27,664 nucleotides of DNA from a virus: IMG/VR virus record IMGVR_UViG_3300048839_001887, positions 1-27,664 of that record, one strand, 5' to 3'. This document shows positions 15,433 to 21,541 of this stretch, one piece after another. Position numbers and translations under genes: made by a program. The notes under the pieces were generated by a model that ran no database searches, was not told where the DNA came from, and saw only the letters and a list, made by a program, of their open reading frames with translations. Position 1 is the stretch's first letter. Every line of letters starts with the position of its first letter.

Positions 15433-15460
15433 GTAGAGACGCAAGATCTTGCGTCTCTAC
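15433..15460. repeat. 28-bp perfect palindrome (genomic repeat), copy 1
   Basis: GTAGAGACGCAAGA followed immediately by its exact reverse complement. A second copy, differing at one base of 28, is inside the ParB-like gene at 19371-19404. Short palindromes of this type are dispersed genomic repeats in several bacterial groups (from memory, cyanobacteria and Chloroflexota). Here it supplies the TAG that ends a decayed regulator fragment. Confidence 0.9.
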
Positions 15461-16778: not shown

Positions 16779-18100
16779 CGCGCACCGCCCATGCGAATGA
16801 TTTTGGTCGCTTCCCCATGCGCCGGCGTCTCCGTGGCGCCCAACGCCTCTGACACCCAGCGATGTGTGTCGGAGGATTTGGCGCCATACACGGCCACGAT
16901 GGTGGCGTTAAGCGACGGCAATTTCGCACGCAGCGACCGGATGGCGGCAGCCTCAATTGCGGTCGGTGCGCGCCGCGGCAGCGGAAATGCGACTGGTGCG
17001 TCCGCACCGGTGCGCACCGGTGCGGACGCTCTGTTTTCTGGCTGCACCGGTCGAGAAATGGTCTCTGCACCGGTGCGCACCGGTGCAGGCCATGTGCGGC
17101 GGGTGAGATCGACCAGGCTTTGCGTACCGGCGTCATCGAGCCAGTAGGCCTGCAGGCGGGTGATATTGGGGCCGTCGATGCGCAGGAAGGCGCCGTTGCC
17201 GGGGAGGAGTTCGGCGCCGGTTGCGGGGCGGTCGGCGGCGGCCTCGGCGTGGCGGGCGCCAACGACCTGGCCGACGATGCGCACGGGGAAATTGGCCTTG
17301 ACGACGCTGCCGATCTCGCCGGCCTTGGGATGCTGGGTGGCGGCGACGACGTGGATGCCGAGCGAGCGGCCGAGGCTGACGATGCTGCCGAGGCGGGCGA
17401 CGATGCCAGGCAGCCGCGCCAGCTCGCGCAGTTCGTCAATGGCAAGCAGGAGTTTCGGCTCAGTGATCTGGCGCTCGATGCGCTGGCGAAGGACGCTCTC
17501 GACGTGACGGATGGCGGCGGCGGCAGCGGCATCCACGACGGCGAAGCGCGCTACGTGCGGCAGCGCGGCCAGTGCGGCCAAATCGCTGTTTTTCATGTCG
17601 ATGAGCACCATTTGCAGATCGGCCGGCGCGGTGTTGATCGCCAGCGATAGCAGCAACATGCGCATCAGGGTCGATTTGCCGCTGCCGGTGGTGCCGGCCA
17701 CCAGGATATGTGGATAGTCGGCCAGGCGAATGGTGTCGTCGGTCGCGCCGTCGGCGCTGTAGATGCGTCCGGTGAGCATGGTGAGGCTGCGCAGCTTCAA
17801 ATGCGCTCGAATCCACGGCAGTGGCTGCGGCGCCGGGTGTGGCGCTTCCAATGCCAGCGGCAGGCGGCGCAGGCGGAGCGGGGTGGCGGTGTGGCGGCTG
17901 GCGGAGATGCGTTCGGATAGTTCCGCCAGGCGCTTTTCGATGGCGTCGATGCTCTGCGCGGGGCCGGTGCGCAGGCCATACAGAATGTAGCTGGTTCCGG
18001 CGACGGTGGTCCAGGCCGAGCGTGTGCCGGCGTCGATGTTGAAGGCGGCCAGCGTCTGATTGATGATTTTGATCTCTCCATGCAGTTGTTTTTCTAGCAT
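16775..18100 (-). CDS. FtsK/SpoIIIE-like DNA translocase ATPase
   Basis: 441 residues from the ATG at 18100, chosen because GGAGG lies seven bases upstream; the longer open frame to 18205 starts inside a structured leader. Walker A is GTTGSGKST (residues 136-144), preceded by PHILVA; a LIDMK motif follows; Walker B is LLLAIDE (217-223); then VAATQHP and ANFPVRIVGQV give the FtsK family pattern. The N-terminal ~130 residues replace the usual membrane domain and no transmembrane helix is visible, so it is a soluble form of the kind found in mobile elements. It is likely to move or segregate circular DNA. The Pro-rich linker near residues 320-360 is encoded by tandem palindromes. A transfer ATPase role is an alternative. 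Confidence 0.85.
   Translation of the reverse strand: MLEKQLHGEIKIINQTLAAFNIDAGTRSAWTTVAGTSYILYGLRTGPAQSIDAIEKRLAELSERISASRHTATPLRLRRLPLALEAPHPAPQPLPWIRAHLKLRSLTMLTGRIYSADGATDDTIRLADYPHILVAGTTGSGKSTLMRMLLLSLAINTAPADLQMVLIDMKNSDLAALAALPHVARFAVVDAAAAAAIRHVESVLRQRIERQITEPKLLLAIDELRELARLPGIVARLGSIVSLGRSLGIHVVAATQHPKAGEIGSVVKANFPVRIVGQVVGARHAEAAADRPATGAELLPGNGAFLRIDGPNITRLQAYWLDDAGTQSLVDLTRRTWPAPVRTGAETISRPVQPENRASAPVRTGADAPVAFPLPRRAPTAIEAAAIRSLRAKLPSLNATIVAVYGAKSSDTHRWVSEALGATETPAHGEATKIIRMGGAR
16998..17088. repeat. Tandem palindromes GCACCGGTGC inside the FtsK-like gene
   Basis: Two perfect palindromic blocks (16998-17029, 32 bp; 17065-17088, 24 bp) each contain two adjacent GCACCGGTGC units, with a shorter GCACCGGTC between them at 17044. 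They encode two APVRTGA repeats of the protein linker. The design could reflect selection on DNA (a protein-binding or nicking site) rather than on protein. Confidence 0.9.
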
Positions 18101-18580: not shown

Positions 18581-18823
18581 TCAACGGATGACAAGCGAGA
18601 CGGTAAAGTTGGCTGCACTGGCGCTCGGCGCGCCTGCCACCGGCGGGCGGATGGCGAGCCAGCGGTGCAGGCAGTCGTTGCGGCCGCAGGTGATGTGGCG
18701 CACGCCATCCGGCCAGAGACCGGACGGACACCCGCAGATCGGGCAGGCGCCGGTGACGTGGGCGGTGCGGATCTGCGCCATAACGCGCTCCTGGGCGGCG
18801 TATTGGGCGGCAGTGTAAGCCAT
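18581..18823 (-). CDS. Small zinc-ribbon-like protein
   Basis: 80 residues from the ATG at 18823, which shares one base with the ParB-like stop (TGATG), so the two are coupled. Four cysteines in CPICGCPSG and CGRNDC (residues ~26-50) with histidines nearby make a probable zinc ribbon. The C-terminus is Ala/Ser-rich. It may be a small DNA-binding partner of the ParB-like protein; that is positional inference. Confidence 0.65.
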   Translation of the reverse strand: MAYTAAQYAAQERVMAQIRTAHVTGACPICGCPSGLWPDGVRHITCGRNDCLHRWLAIRPPVAGAPSASAANFTVSLVIR

Positions 18824-20151
18824 CAGTCGCACGCCTCCATCGGCTCCGCATCACGCCCTTCCAGCAGGTCGAGGGTGCGCTGTAAGCGAATGATCAGCTT
18901 CTCCAGCTCGCGCTTGGCGGCCAGCGGCTCCGTAAAGCAGCCGGTGAGCTGGCCGTACTCTTGCTCGGCGGCAATGGCCTGGCGGTAGACGTTGATCAGC
19001 CGGCTGCACTGACCAATGCGGATGTCCTGCGCCTCGGTCGGCATGGTTTCGGCGTCGGCGGTCTCCTCGATCGCGGCCACCGCCTCGCTCTTCTGCTGCG
19101 GCCGTTCGCTGGCGGCCTCTTGCGCCTGCGCCTTTGTCAGCCGGCGCTCCACTACCATCTGCTTCGCCTGTGTATGCACGGCCTGTTTGATGCGCTGCGG
19201 CGTCAGGTCGAACGGCGCCAGCACACGCAGCAACTTCTCCTGGTAGATCCCCTCCTGCCGATCGATGCTAGACATCATGGCGTAATAGGTGCGCAGGAAT
19301 TGCAGATCATCGCCATACACCTCGGTGGCGACGGTCTCGCAGATGTCGGTCAGCTCGAACTCGGTAATCGGCAGTAGAGACGCAAGATGTTGCGTCTCTA
19401 CTGCTGGATGACGAGATCGCGCCGCGGGGATGTCGCCGTCGTCCACCATCTGAGCGAGGCTCTTGTAGCGGGGCGGCGCGCCTGGCGCCGGCATGTCCAG
19501 CGCCGGCAGGGCGGATTCGTAGCGGCGCTGCGCCGGCATGTCCGGGGGCGCAGGTCGGTTGGCGCCGATGTTGGCGGTGTTGATGGTGCGCCCGTCCGCG
19601 CCGATGCGCTCGGGCGACTTCGCAATTTGCGAAGTCGTTTCGAGTTCCGCCCGGATATTACGCACGGTCGTTTCGCCGACGGCGCAGCGCCGGGCGATCT
19701 CGCTGTTGCTCCATTTGGCCCATTCCTCATCCCTGAGCAACATTTCGACGGCGCGGCGCTTGTCGGCGTTGGTGCGGCGCAGGCCGTGGCTGGCGTTGGC
19801 GCCGGCGGCGTGGAGGATGGCGTCGCGGCGCGTGCCGACGCGCACGTCGGCCGGGATCGTCTCCAGCCCCAGCGCGCTGTTGCCGGAGCGCTTCCACGCC
19901 GCCACCCGGTGGAAGCCATCCGCCAGCCAGTAGTCTGTCCCGTCGTGGTAGACGAGCACCGCCGGGAAGCTACCCCAGGCGCGCTGCTCCCTGAAAGAAT
20001 CGGCGTACTCGCTCACCGTGCCGTCATCCAGCCCGGCGCGCATCTGCGTGCCGCCGTCTGTCTTGATCTCGCGCACGCAGATCGGCGTGGTCTTGCCGGG
20101 ATCGGCGCTGAGGATGTCATCTAAGATGTTTGGGATCGGTTTTCTGGTCAT
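18823..20151 (-). CDS. ParB/Srx-like protein
   Basis: 442 residues; AAGGA-type ribosome site just upstream of the ATG. The N-terminal domain (residues ~24-90) carries the ParB nuclease-like pattern with DGTDYWLADGFHRVAAW. A helix-turn-helix follows (residues ~127-174, SNSEIARRCAVGETTVRNIR). The C-terminal half is helical and variable. Residues 250-260 are encoded by a genomic palindrome. No ParA is adjacent, and the neighbours are RepA-like and FtsK-like ATPases, so partition, transcription control or replication control are all possible. The inverted iteron repeat in its leader could be its binding site. Confidence 0.8.
   Translation of the reverse strand: MTRKPIPNILDDILSADPGKTTPICVREIKTDGGTQMRAGLDDGTVSEYADSFREQRAWGSFPAVLVYHDGTDYWLADGFHRVAAWKRSGNSALGLETIPADVRVGTRRDAILHAAGANASHGLRRTNADKRRAVEMLLRDEEWAKWSNSEIARRCAVGETTVRNIRAELETTSQIAKSPERIGADGRTINTANIGANRPAPPDMPAQRRYESALPALDMPAPGAPPRYKSLAQMVDDGDIPAARSRHPAVETQHLASLLPITEFELTDICETVATEVYGDDLQFLRTYYAMMSSIDRQEGIYQEKLLRVLAPFDLTPQRIKQAVHTQAKQMVVERRLTKAQAQEAASERPQQKSEAVAAIEETADAETMPTEAQDIRIGQCSRLINVYRQAIAAEQEYGQLTGCFTEPLAAKRELEKLIIRLQRTLDLLEGRDAEPMEACD
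19371..19404. repeat. Palindromic genomic repeat, copy 2, inside the ParB-like gene
   Basis: Fifteen-base arms (GCAGTAGAGACGCAA and its complement) flank four bases. The central 28 bases differ from the copy at 15433-15460 at one base. It is in frame, encoding AVETQHLASLL, and does not stop the gene. Confidence 0.9.
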
Positions 20152-20174: not shown

Positions 20175-20254
20175 CGGTTTCACGGTTTCACGGTTTCACG
20201 CGTTTTGATGGGGGGGGGTATGAAAATGCGTGAAACCGTGAAACCGTGAAACCG
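20175..20254. repeat. Inverted iteron array around a G-run, before the ParB-like gene
   Basis: A perfect 27-bp inverted repeat: three CGGTTTCA-type units at 20175-20201 and three TGAAACCG-type units at 20228-20254, separated by 26 bases that contain nine consecutive G (20210-20218). It begins immediately after the RepA-like stop (20255) and ends about 25 bases before the ParB-like start. Iterons of this sort occur at plasmid origins and centromere-like sites, and the G-run may vary by slippage. Confidence 0.95.
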
Positions 20255-21541
20255 TTATTCTGCTTCTGCTGCACTATCTTCCGCTGAATCGTCTGCCTCA
20301 CAGGAGAGAACCCATAGATTGCCTTTGCCTTGCTTGCCTGTACTGTCGCTGATCTGGCTGCCCAGCCGCTTGCGCGCCCGGTAGATCGTGGCTTTGCTGA
20401 AACCGTCCCGCTCGCCGTCGGCGACAATTTCCATGAATTTCGTTGCTCCGTTCGTCTCCAGATAGTCGATCAGCCATTCTTCTGCAGAGGGTTCTGGGTC
20501 GGCCTCCGGGCTGGCCGGGCCGTAGGTAAAGCGCACGCCGGCGTCACCACGCTCCATGCGCACCTCCAGCCGCGGCGGATATTGCGGCGCCAGGTTGGTC
20601 TTGACGACCTCGACGGTGCGCGGGCCGTTGAGGCTGAATTGTTTGCCCGGCTTCTGCACGACGCTCAGGCCGATGACCGAGCGGGCCATGGCGACGATGT
20701 GCGTCGATCCACGGAAGTCATGGATGGAGACGCCGGGCAAGGATAGTTGGCCGCCTCCTGGCTTGCGCAGGTGATGGAGCAGCACGAGGCCAGTGTTGAA
20801 CTCGCGCGCCAGCCCGTTGAGCCAGGTGAGGAGTGAACTGACCTCCTCGGCGGAATTGGTGCCCTTGGCGCCGGTGATGGCGCTGAGCGAGTCGATCAGC
20901 ACCAGATCGGGCTGAGCCAGGCAGAGCAGGTCGATCAGCCGGTCGCGCCACGGTTGCGCGTTGAAATCCATCATCTCGCCGGTGTCGGCCATCATCAGGT
21001 AGACGCGCTGCGCATCGATGCCGAGTTCGGCCGCACGCTCGGCGTTGACCTGCGGAATGCCCTCGGCGTCGACGTAGACCACTTTGGCCGTGGCCGGTTC
21101 GTGCGTGAGCGGGGTGCCGTCCGGCCAGGCGTCGCCGTGCAGAGCGATGCGCGCCAGTTCCATGACAAAAAACGACTTGCCGCTGCCCTGGAACGCGCCG
21201 AGCAGGCTCAACATGCCGCGCGGGATCCAGTTCTCCCACAGCCAGGTGACAGGCTCCAGCGTGGCTGCCAGTTCGGCCAGGGTGGGGAAGTGCAGCGGCG
21301 CGGCGGCATCTTCGATGGCCGCCATCCATTCGCGGCGTGCGTCCATATCGTCGCCGGCTACCATTTGGATGGCATATTGCAATTTGCTGATGCCTAGAGG
21401 CATCCATGACTCCCGCTCGCTGGAAAGGATAAGCTCGCGCCACGGCCACGTCCAGCCGGCGAGATCGATCTGCGAGGTCGGCATCTCTTCCTCTACCAGC
21501 GAGCGGTAGAGGAGGTTGCGCTGCATCCGTTCGGTGATCAT
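20255..21541 (-). CDS. RepA-type (AAA_25/RecA-like) replication ATPase
   Basis: 428 residues starting with an ATG that overlaps the stop of the gene before by four bases. Walker A GAFQGSGKS (residues 115-123), Walker B DLVLIDS (212-218) and LHHLRKPGG with an RGSTHIVAMAR motif match RepA/RecA-like hexameric helicases of plasmids and phages. The C-terminal ~70 residues (KFMEIVADGERDGFSKATIYR onward) look like a winged-helix domain. It probably unwinds the origin or loads replication proteins. Its stop directly adjoins the inverted iteron array. Confidence 0.88.
   Translation of the reverse strand: MITERMQRNLLYRSLVEEEMPTSQIDLAGWTWPWRELILSSERESWMPLGISKLQYAIQMVAGDDMDARREWMAAIEDAAAPLHFPTLAELAATLEPVTWLWENWIPRGMLSLLGAFQGSGKSFFVMELARIALHGDAWPDGTPLTHEPATAKVVYVDAEGIPQVNAERAAELGIDAQRVYLMMADTGEMMDFNAQPWRDRLIDLLCLAQPDLVLIDSLSAITGAKGTNSAEEVSSLLTWLNGLAREFNTGLVLLHHLRKPGGGQLSLPGVSIHDFRGSTHIVAMARSVIGLSVVQKPGKQFSLNGPRTVEVVKTNLAPQYPPRLEVRMERGDAGVRFTYGPASPEADPEPSAEEWLIDYLETNGATKFMEIVADGERDGFSKATIYRARKRLGSQISDSTGKQGKGNLWVLSCEADDSAEDSAAEAE

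Follow-up and report, generated by a model that had tools for sequence, protein, structure and literature searches.

The placing of a replication origin just behind a helicase gene is a known layout, found in crr of P4 and in the origins of PICI/SaPI elements, there with helicase families other than the one treated here. In SaPIs, the C-terminal domains of Rep recognise iterons located directly downstream of rep (PMC7581432, PMC6092414), and the PICI authors held their own origin layout to be unique among bacterial replicons; for the Rep-ori of PICI/SaPI we follow Ubeda et al. 2007 to the extent that it is cited in PMC7581432. In P4, the winged-helix domain of alpha binds repeats (PMC4234260), and the crr octamers begin 46 bp after the alpha gene. 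No description of AAA_25 helicases with 3' iterons was found in a literature search. For most environmental phages, we know of no replication origin.

The window, which is the whole stretch of DNA analysed here, was an IMG/VR virus record of 27,664 bases. Genes of a tailed phage were identified in it, including terminase large subunit, integrase and a helix-turn-helix regulator, together with portal- and tail-like ORFs. A RepA-like protein of 428 aa (20255..21541, minus strand) was encoded, with an AAA_25 domain of the RecA fold and hexameric-helicase type (Pfam PF13481, E 1.7e-30); AAA_25 was its sole Pfam match, with none to a primase domain. T7 gp4 helicase and RSF1010 RepA (1g8y, E 1.9e-4) were recovered with it by profile search, and phage primase/helicase families by PHROG. 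A ParB-like gene (18823..20151, minus strand; phrog_1033, E 1e-19) was found in the same direction, beginning downstream of the far arm of the array described below, and was judged to lie outside the origin module. The RepA-like and ParB-like neighbours named in the original prediction were both upheld by these matches.

Between the two genes there is a perfect inverted repeat of 27 bp, with its arms at 20175-20201 and 20228-20254, exactly as predicted with three units on each side around nine G; when the whole window was Markov-shuffled 30 times, the longest such repeat per shuffle was only 10-13 bp. The longer arms 20175-20209 and 20220-20254 were 94% complementary. Each arm consists of three contiguous CGGTTTCA octamers, on the plus strand in one (20175..20182, 20183..20190 and 20191..20198) and on the minus strand in the other (20231..20238, 20239..20246 and 20247..20254), and the last of these abuts the RepA-like stop codon, which touches the outer end of that arm. 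The 16-mers made of CGGTTTCA matched 4 times with 0.14 expected, a number reached in 0 of 100 shuffles. The central spacer of 26 bp (20202..20227), proposed from DNA alignment and folding as the melting/priming region, has 14 A/T in 26 positions, slightly above the surroundings, yet it contains the G9 run (20210..20218, plus strand), which is C9 on the RepA coding strand. The hairpin into which the array strand folds is very stable (-36.8 kcal/mol, z -12). No meaningful match was obtained with the array by blastn against phages and plasmids.

Other repeats were observed in the window. Tandem GCACCGGTGC palindromes are located at 16998-17088 within an FtsK-like gene, where they encode the repeated APVRTGA; they give long perfect inverted repeats and resemble an inserted repeat element. 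In addition, two REP-like hairpins built on GTAGAGACGCAA exist at 15433-15460 and 19371-19404, one apparently intergenic and the other within the ParB-like gene.

Relatives were gathered by ParB and RepA searches, giving six contigs, which form four groups and whose RepA shares about 50% identity with that of the window. In every relative contig extending beyond the RepA stop, an inverted array of octamer period was found directly 3' of it, with octamers different from those of the window. It was made of CTATTCTACCGTTCTACTGTTCGATAC and its mirrored copies in L009/L010 (the L010 octamer being of CTACCGTT type), of CACTGACA units either side of a scaffold gap in L006/L007, and of CTGACTGT units in L115. 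All loci were scanned for units of 5 to 12 bp that are repeated in tandem and also occur inverted close by; period 8 gave 11 matches, a count that includes both arms and duplicate contigs, and other periods gave at most 2 each. Among L110, L111 and L118, the assemblies of two relatives are gapped exactly between the array arms and the third contig stops inside the RepA-like gene, which suggests that short-read assembly tends to break at such arrays.

The arrays of the window, L115 and L010 share a GT-NNN-AC-N skeleton when aligned in register; its G,T and A,C stay largely constant and its central triplet is specific to the phage, i.e. TTC in the window, CTG in L115 and TCT/TCG in L010. From this skeleton the L006 octamer retains only AC and the triplet CTG. 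The spacers of the same three arrays have TTTT..CCC..TCA.AA in common on the RepA strand, in which a C run separates a T-rich from an A-rich stretch. This run has 9 C in the window and 4 and 3 C in L115 and L010; the G9 run is its longest version among the three. Slippage of the G run, predicted originally as a way to tune ParB expression, was not borne out, with G9 lying in a non-coding spacer, 3-4 C/G in the relatives and ParB not always downstream.

The gene order is RepA-array-ParB in the window and L115, and ParB-RepA-array in L006 and L010. The array thus follows RepA in both orders and belongs to RepA. This bears on two other explanations. One is that the array is a regulatory element of the RepA-ParB transcript, either an mRNA hairpin acting as terminator or attenuator, or an operator controlling ParB. 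Such an element would fit the strong hairpin, which lies between two genes of the same direction and stops close to the ParB ribosome-binding site; however, terminator, promoter and Rfam scans returned nothing at the array, a U tract is absent, and the array is conserved where ParB is not downstream, which makes this explanation very improbable. Autoregulation of RepA could take place alongside an origin function.

The other is that the ParB-like protein binds the array as a centromere-like partition site, as the ParB-like gene adjoins the array and some partition systems use inverted short repeats. It is equally hard to credit, for the array stays 3' of RepA where ParB is upstream (L006/L010), and the ParB helix-turn-helix (HTH) segments are alike in the window and L006 (SNSEIARRCAVGETTVRNIRAELE and SNYEIAKRCAVAESSVRNIRAELE) while the octamers are different, which argues against ParB as the reader. 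The same scan found no octamer-period inverted array at 75 of 76 other ParB-homologue loci, the partial exception being L044, with a sensitivity for which the imperfect L010 array fell just below threshold; loci with a ParB homologue and no RepA-like gene accordingly had no such array save that partial one. The ParB-like protein is a neighbour in some relatives and gave no sign of using the array. The original prediction had left open an origin or a partition site. Its origin half is well supported by the conserved position, the changing motif and the covariation of motif with the C-terminal domain described below, and its ParB partition half is not supported, the array following RepA.

For the reader of the octamers, the L006 and L010 pair was informative. 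The DNA identity of their RepA cores is mostly 0.9-1.0, with 0.83 as the lowest value, and from about codon 339 onward, across winged helix and array, it drops to 0.63, 0.47 and 0.13. The ParB HTH likewise differs between the two contigs, so this pair alone cannot single out RepA. Taken with the window and L006 comparison, the octamers would most likely be read by the C-terminal winged helix of the RepA-like protein.

This domain comprises residues 345-428 (20258..20509, minus strand) and was modelled with AlphaFold2 and searched with Foldseek. The last 84 residues were predicted as three helices and a beta hairpin, with pLDDT of about 92-95 in the helices; the model of the C-terminus alone, built with 45 sequences, was good, and the full-length RepA model was poor (pLDDT 57) and left out of the fold search. 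Winged helices were matched with probability up to 1.00, but with E of at least 0.04, and phage AAA-domain proteins were the top matches in the viral structure library. The C-terminal stretch also resembles the C-terminus of phrog_10729, otherwise a different primase/polymerase family, and matches phrog_10342, a small DNA-binding family. Among relatives whose RepA core stays constant, the C-terminal domain varies. It can be regarded as a confidently predicted winged helix.

The window family offers four readable arrays only, and the covariation statistics were obtained in a sister family, the phage TOPRIM-AAA_25 primase-helicases, with 80 loci and 65 distinct 3' regions. One 7-mer occurring at least 4 times in the 200 nt that follow the stop was taken as an array; this was observed in 48 of 65 3' regions versus 0 of 63 upstream and 0 of 65 coding stretches. 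A repeat-count test of the same kind recovers P4 crr, with GGTGAA x10 in 345 nt. Array similarity correlated with C-terminal identity at 0.50 (Spearman) versus 0.25 with core identity. In a partial Mantel test of the C-terminus controlling for the core, r was 0.47, which 0 of 999 permutations reached, and the correlation with the core controlling for the C-terminus was -0.18. Thus the repeat motif tracks the C-terminal domain and not the core in the sister family. The motif groups pair with sequences of the recognition helix, for example GGGTCA with NAERTVRNMV, AGGGGG with RKPRTIENDL, GGTAAC with SETSAKQYLK and GGGAAC with SESSAKVYIK. Alteromonas phage XX1924, a cultured phage in the sister family, has an array of GGTTCA.

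An extruded stem-loop (cruciform) might be recognised instead of double-stranded iterons, as has been proposed for archaeal plasmid pRN1 and phage BIP-1. The stability of the hairpin of the window would agree with it, the L115 and L010 arrays fold strongly too, and pRN1 requires its 3' stem-loop (PMC4234260). On the other hand, two units are swapped between the arms in L010 and the arms of L115 mismatch, indicating that the octamer unit is kept and not perfect pairing. The repeats of the sister family are separate short motifs with irregular spacing which form no single palindrome, and the motif tracks the winged-helix domain. Recognition of a stem-loop was therefore considered unlikely, and binding of double-stranded octamers by the winged helix is preferred.

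Repeats resembling the array were also searched elsewhere. Matches of the octamer in viral contigs by exact search were in coding sequence or chance-like, except for L005, an unrelated AT-rich phage, in which the octamer GTGAAACC, the same as that of the window, occurs in direct and inverted copies in intergenic DNA (L005:7216-7490). These copies are upstream (5', not 3') of a primase/AAA_25 helicase gene (L005:8133-10157). In bacterial genomes, an exact 24-mer search returned tandem microsatellites with no RepA-like gene nearby. Tandem octamers of GTTTCACG type were observed in intergenic positions of bacterial contigs (L086-L104) from Lentisphaeria, Saprospiraceae, Pseudomonas, Acinetobacter and others. 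The adjacent units GTTTTACG, GTTCTACG, GTTATACT and GTCATGCC in Lentisphaeria repeat every 8 bp, and most of them begin with GT, which is reminiscent of the phage skeleton.

As identical octamers run in tandem between genes in Lentisphaeria, Saprospiraceae, Pseudomonas and others, the array of the window might by analogy be a neutral octamer microsatellite or a REP/MITE-like insertion, comparable with the GTTTCACG arrays of bacterial chromosomes. But the bacterial runs are direct, mostly without inversion and without nearby RepA-like genes, whereas the phages conserve position and inverted architecture while the letters change. A neutral repeat is extremely unlikely for this reason.

In a more distant RepA-like family of gut elements and ICEs (A3), mostly gut elements with many beside serine-recombinase-like genes, a significant 3' array was present in 0 of 63 loci by the exact 6-mer test. 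By eye only, degenerate octamer arrays were observed in A3 loci L127, L124, L128 and L161. Also by eye only, inverted repeats GGCAA/TTGCC and CTGGCA/TGCCAG were observed right after the stop of RepA-like TOPRIM-AAA_25 genes in Subdoligranulum plasmids (L289, L290), one of which is an 8.5-kb MOBQ plasmid. These repeats are a possible plasmid version of the phage origin layout.

In its position, its opposed iteron sets, the winged helix of its helicase and the covariation, the array follows the logic established for P4 crr and the SaPI/PICI origins, which leads to the reading that the array holds origin iterons bound by the RepA-like C-terminal domain. The array is thus probably (at roughly 0.7) the replication origin of a tailed phage, or the initiator-binding half of it, with iterons bound by the C-terminal winged helix of the RepA-like protein. 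Two opposed sets of three octamer iterons would flank the 26-bp spacer, and the RepA-like helicase, encoded just upstream, would bind them through its C-terminal winged helix. Binding would assemble helicase rings on either side of the spacer, then the spacer would melt, the helicase would be loaded and replication would begin. That the octamers are bound, the spacer melted, the helicase loaded and replication started there is what we infer. Since the reader gene and the site adjoin, they could move between phages as a single specificity cassette.

Two points on base composition should be set beside this reading. The spacer is just modestly AT-rich, a point against the reading; in PICI/SaPI-type origins the central region is AT-rich. 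A GC-skew inflection at the array, for which the original prediction had called, was absent when checked in the window. Three complete sister-family phages have their minimum of cumulative skew about 0.9-2.5 kb from the array, one of these distances holding only when the record is read as a circle; in two of the three the minimum is nearer to gene-strand switches and is confounded with gene orientation.

On a wider scale, it is tentatively proposed that the AAA_25 (RecA-fold) helicases of many phages and some plasmids constitute self-contained origin cassettes, with a fused winged helix and their own iterons after the stop, which are swapped between phages and use a simple code, here GT-NNN-AC-N, whose central triplet the recognition helix would read. 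If this is true, such helicases would be self-loading initiators in a class normally loaded by other proteins. Origins would be predictable from sequence by a rule, namely to look for short inverted iterons immediately behind an AAA_25 helicase gene. The repeats and C-terminal domains, which change in pairs, would also provide a natural series of specificities in which to study origin recognition by a helicase.

Compared with known systems, RSF1010 RepA belongs to the same hexameric helicase fold family (1g8y, E 1.9e-4), but a separate RepC binds the iterons there (PMC4234260), whereas the helicase of the window has its own predicted C-terminal winged helix, and its repeat is 8 bp. Replicons of the RSF1010 type also have RepB' as their primase. 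In pRN1 and BIP-1, a stem-loop is directly 3' of the replication gene and a C-terminal winged helix is present (PMC4234260), but the helicase is SF3 with an archaeo-eukaryotic primase and octamer iterons were not reported. Unlike ParB/parS, the array is linked across relatives to RepA and not to ParB (L006/L010).

Like the window, P4 alpha/crr (type I iterons) has octamers of both orientations shortly behind the helicase gene. It differs in that alpha joins a TOPRIM primase and an SF3 helicase in one protein, whereas the window encodes a 428-aa protein with AAA_25 only, and in having a second, distant ori and iterons which are not one contiguous palindrome. As in PICI/SaPI elements, where the origin is immediately 3' of the initiator-helicase gene, the arrays of the window, L006, L010 and L115 follow their helicase genes. 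Two iteron sets lie around a central region (three opposed octamers on each side in the window), the C-terminal domain of the helicase is the reader of the iterons, as proposed here, and the iteron letters differ between elements. In contrast, PICI/SaPI Rep is SF3/MCM-like and the window protein is AAA_25 of the RecA fold; those elements are helper-dependent satellites, whereas the phage of the window has its own terminase, portal and tail genes, and its spacer is short with a G/C run. Because helicase family and element type differ, the array falls outside the PICI and P4 groups, and by analogy it would work like the origins of both.
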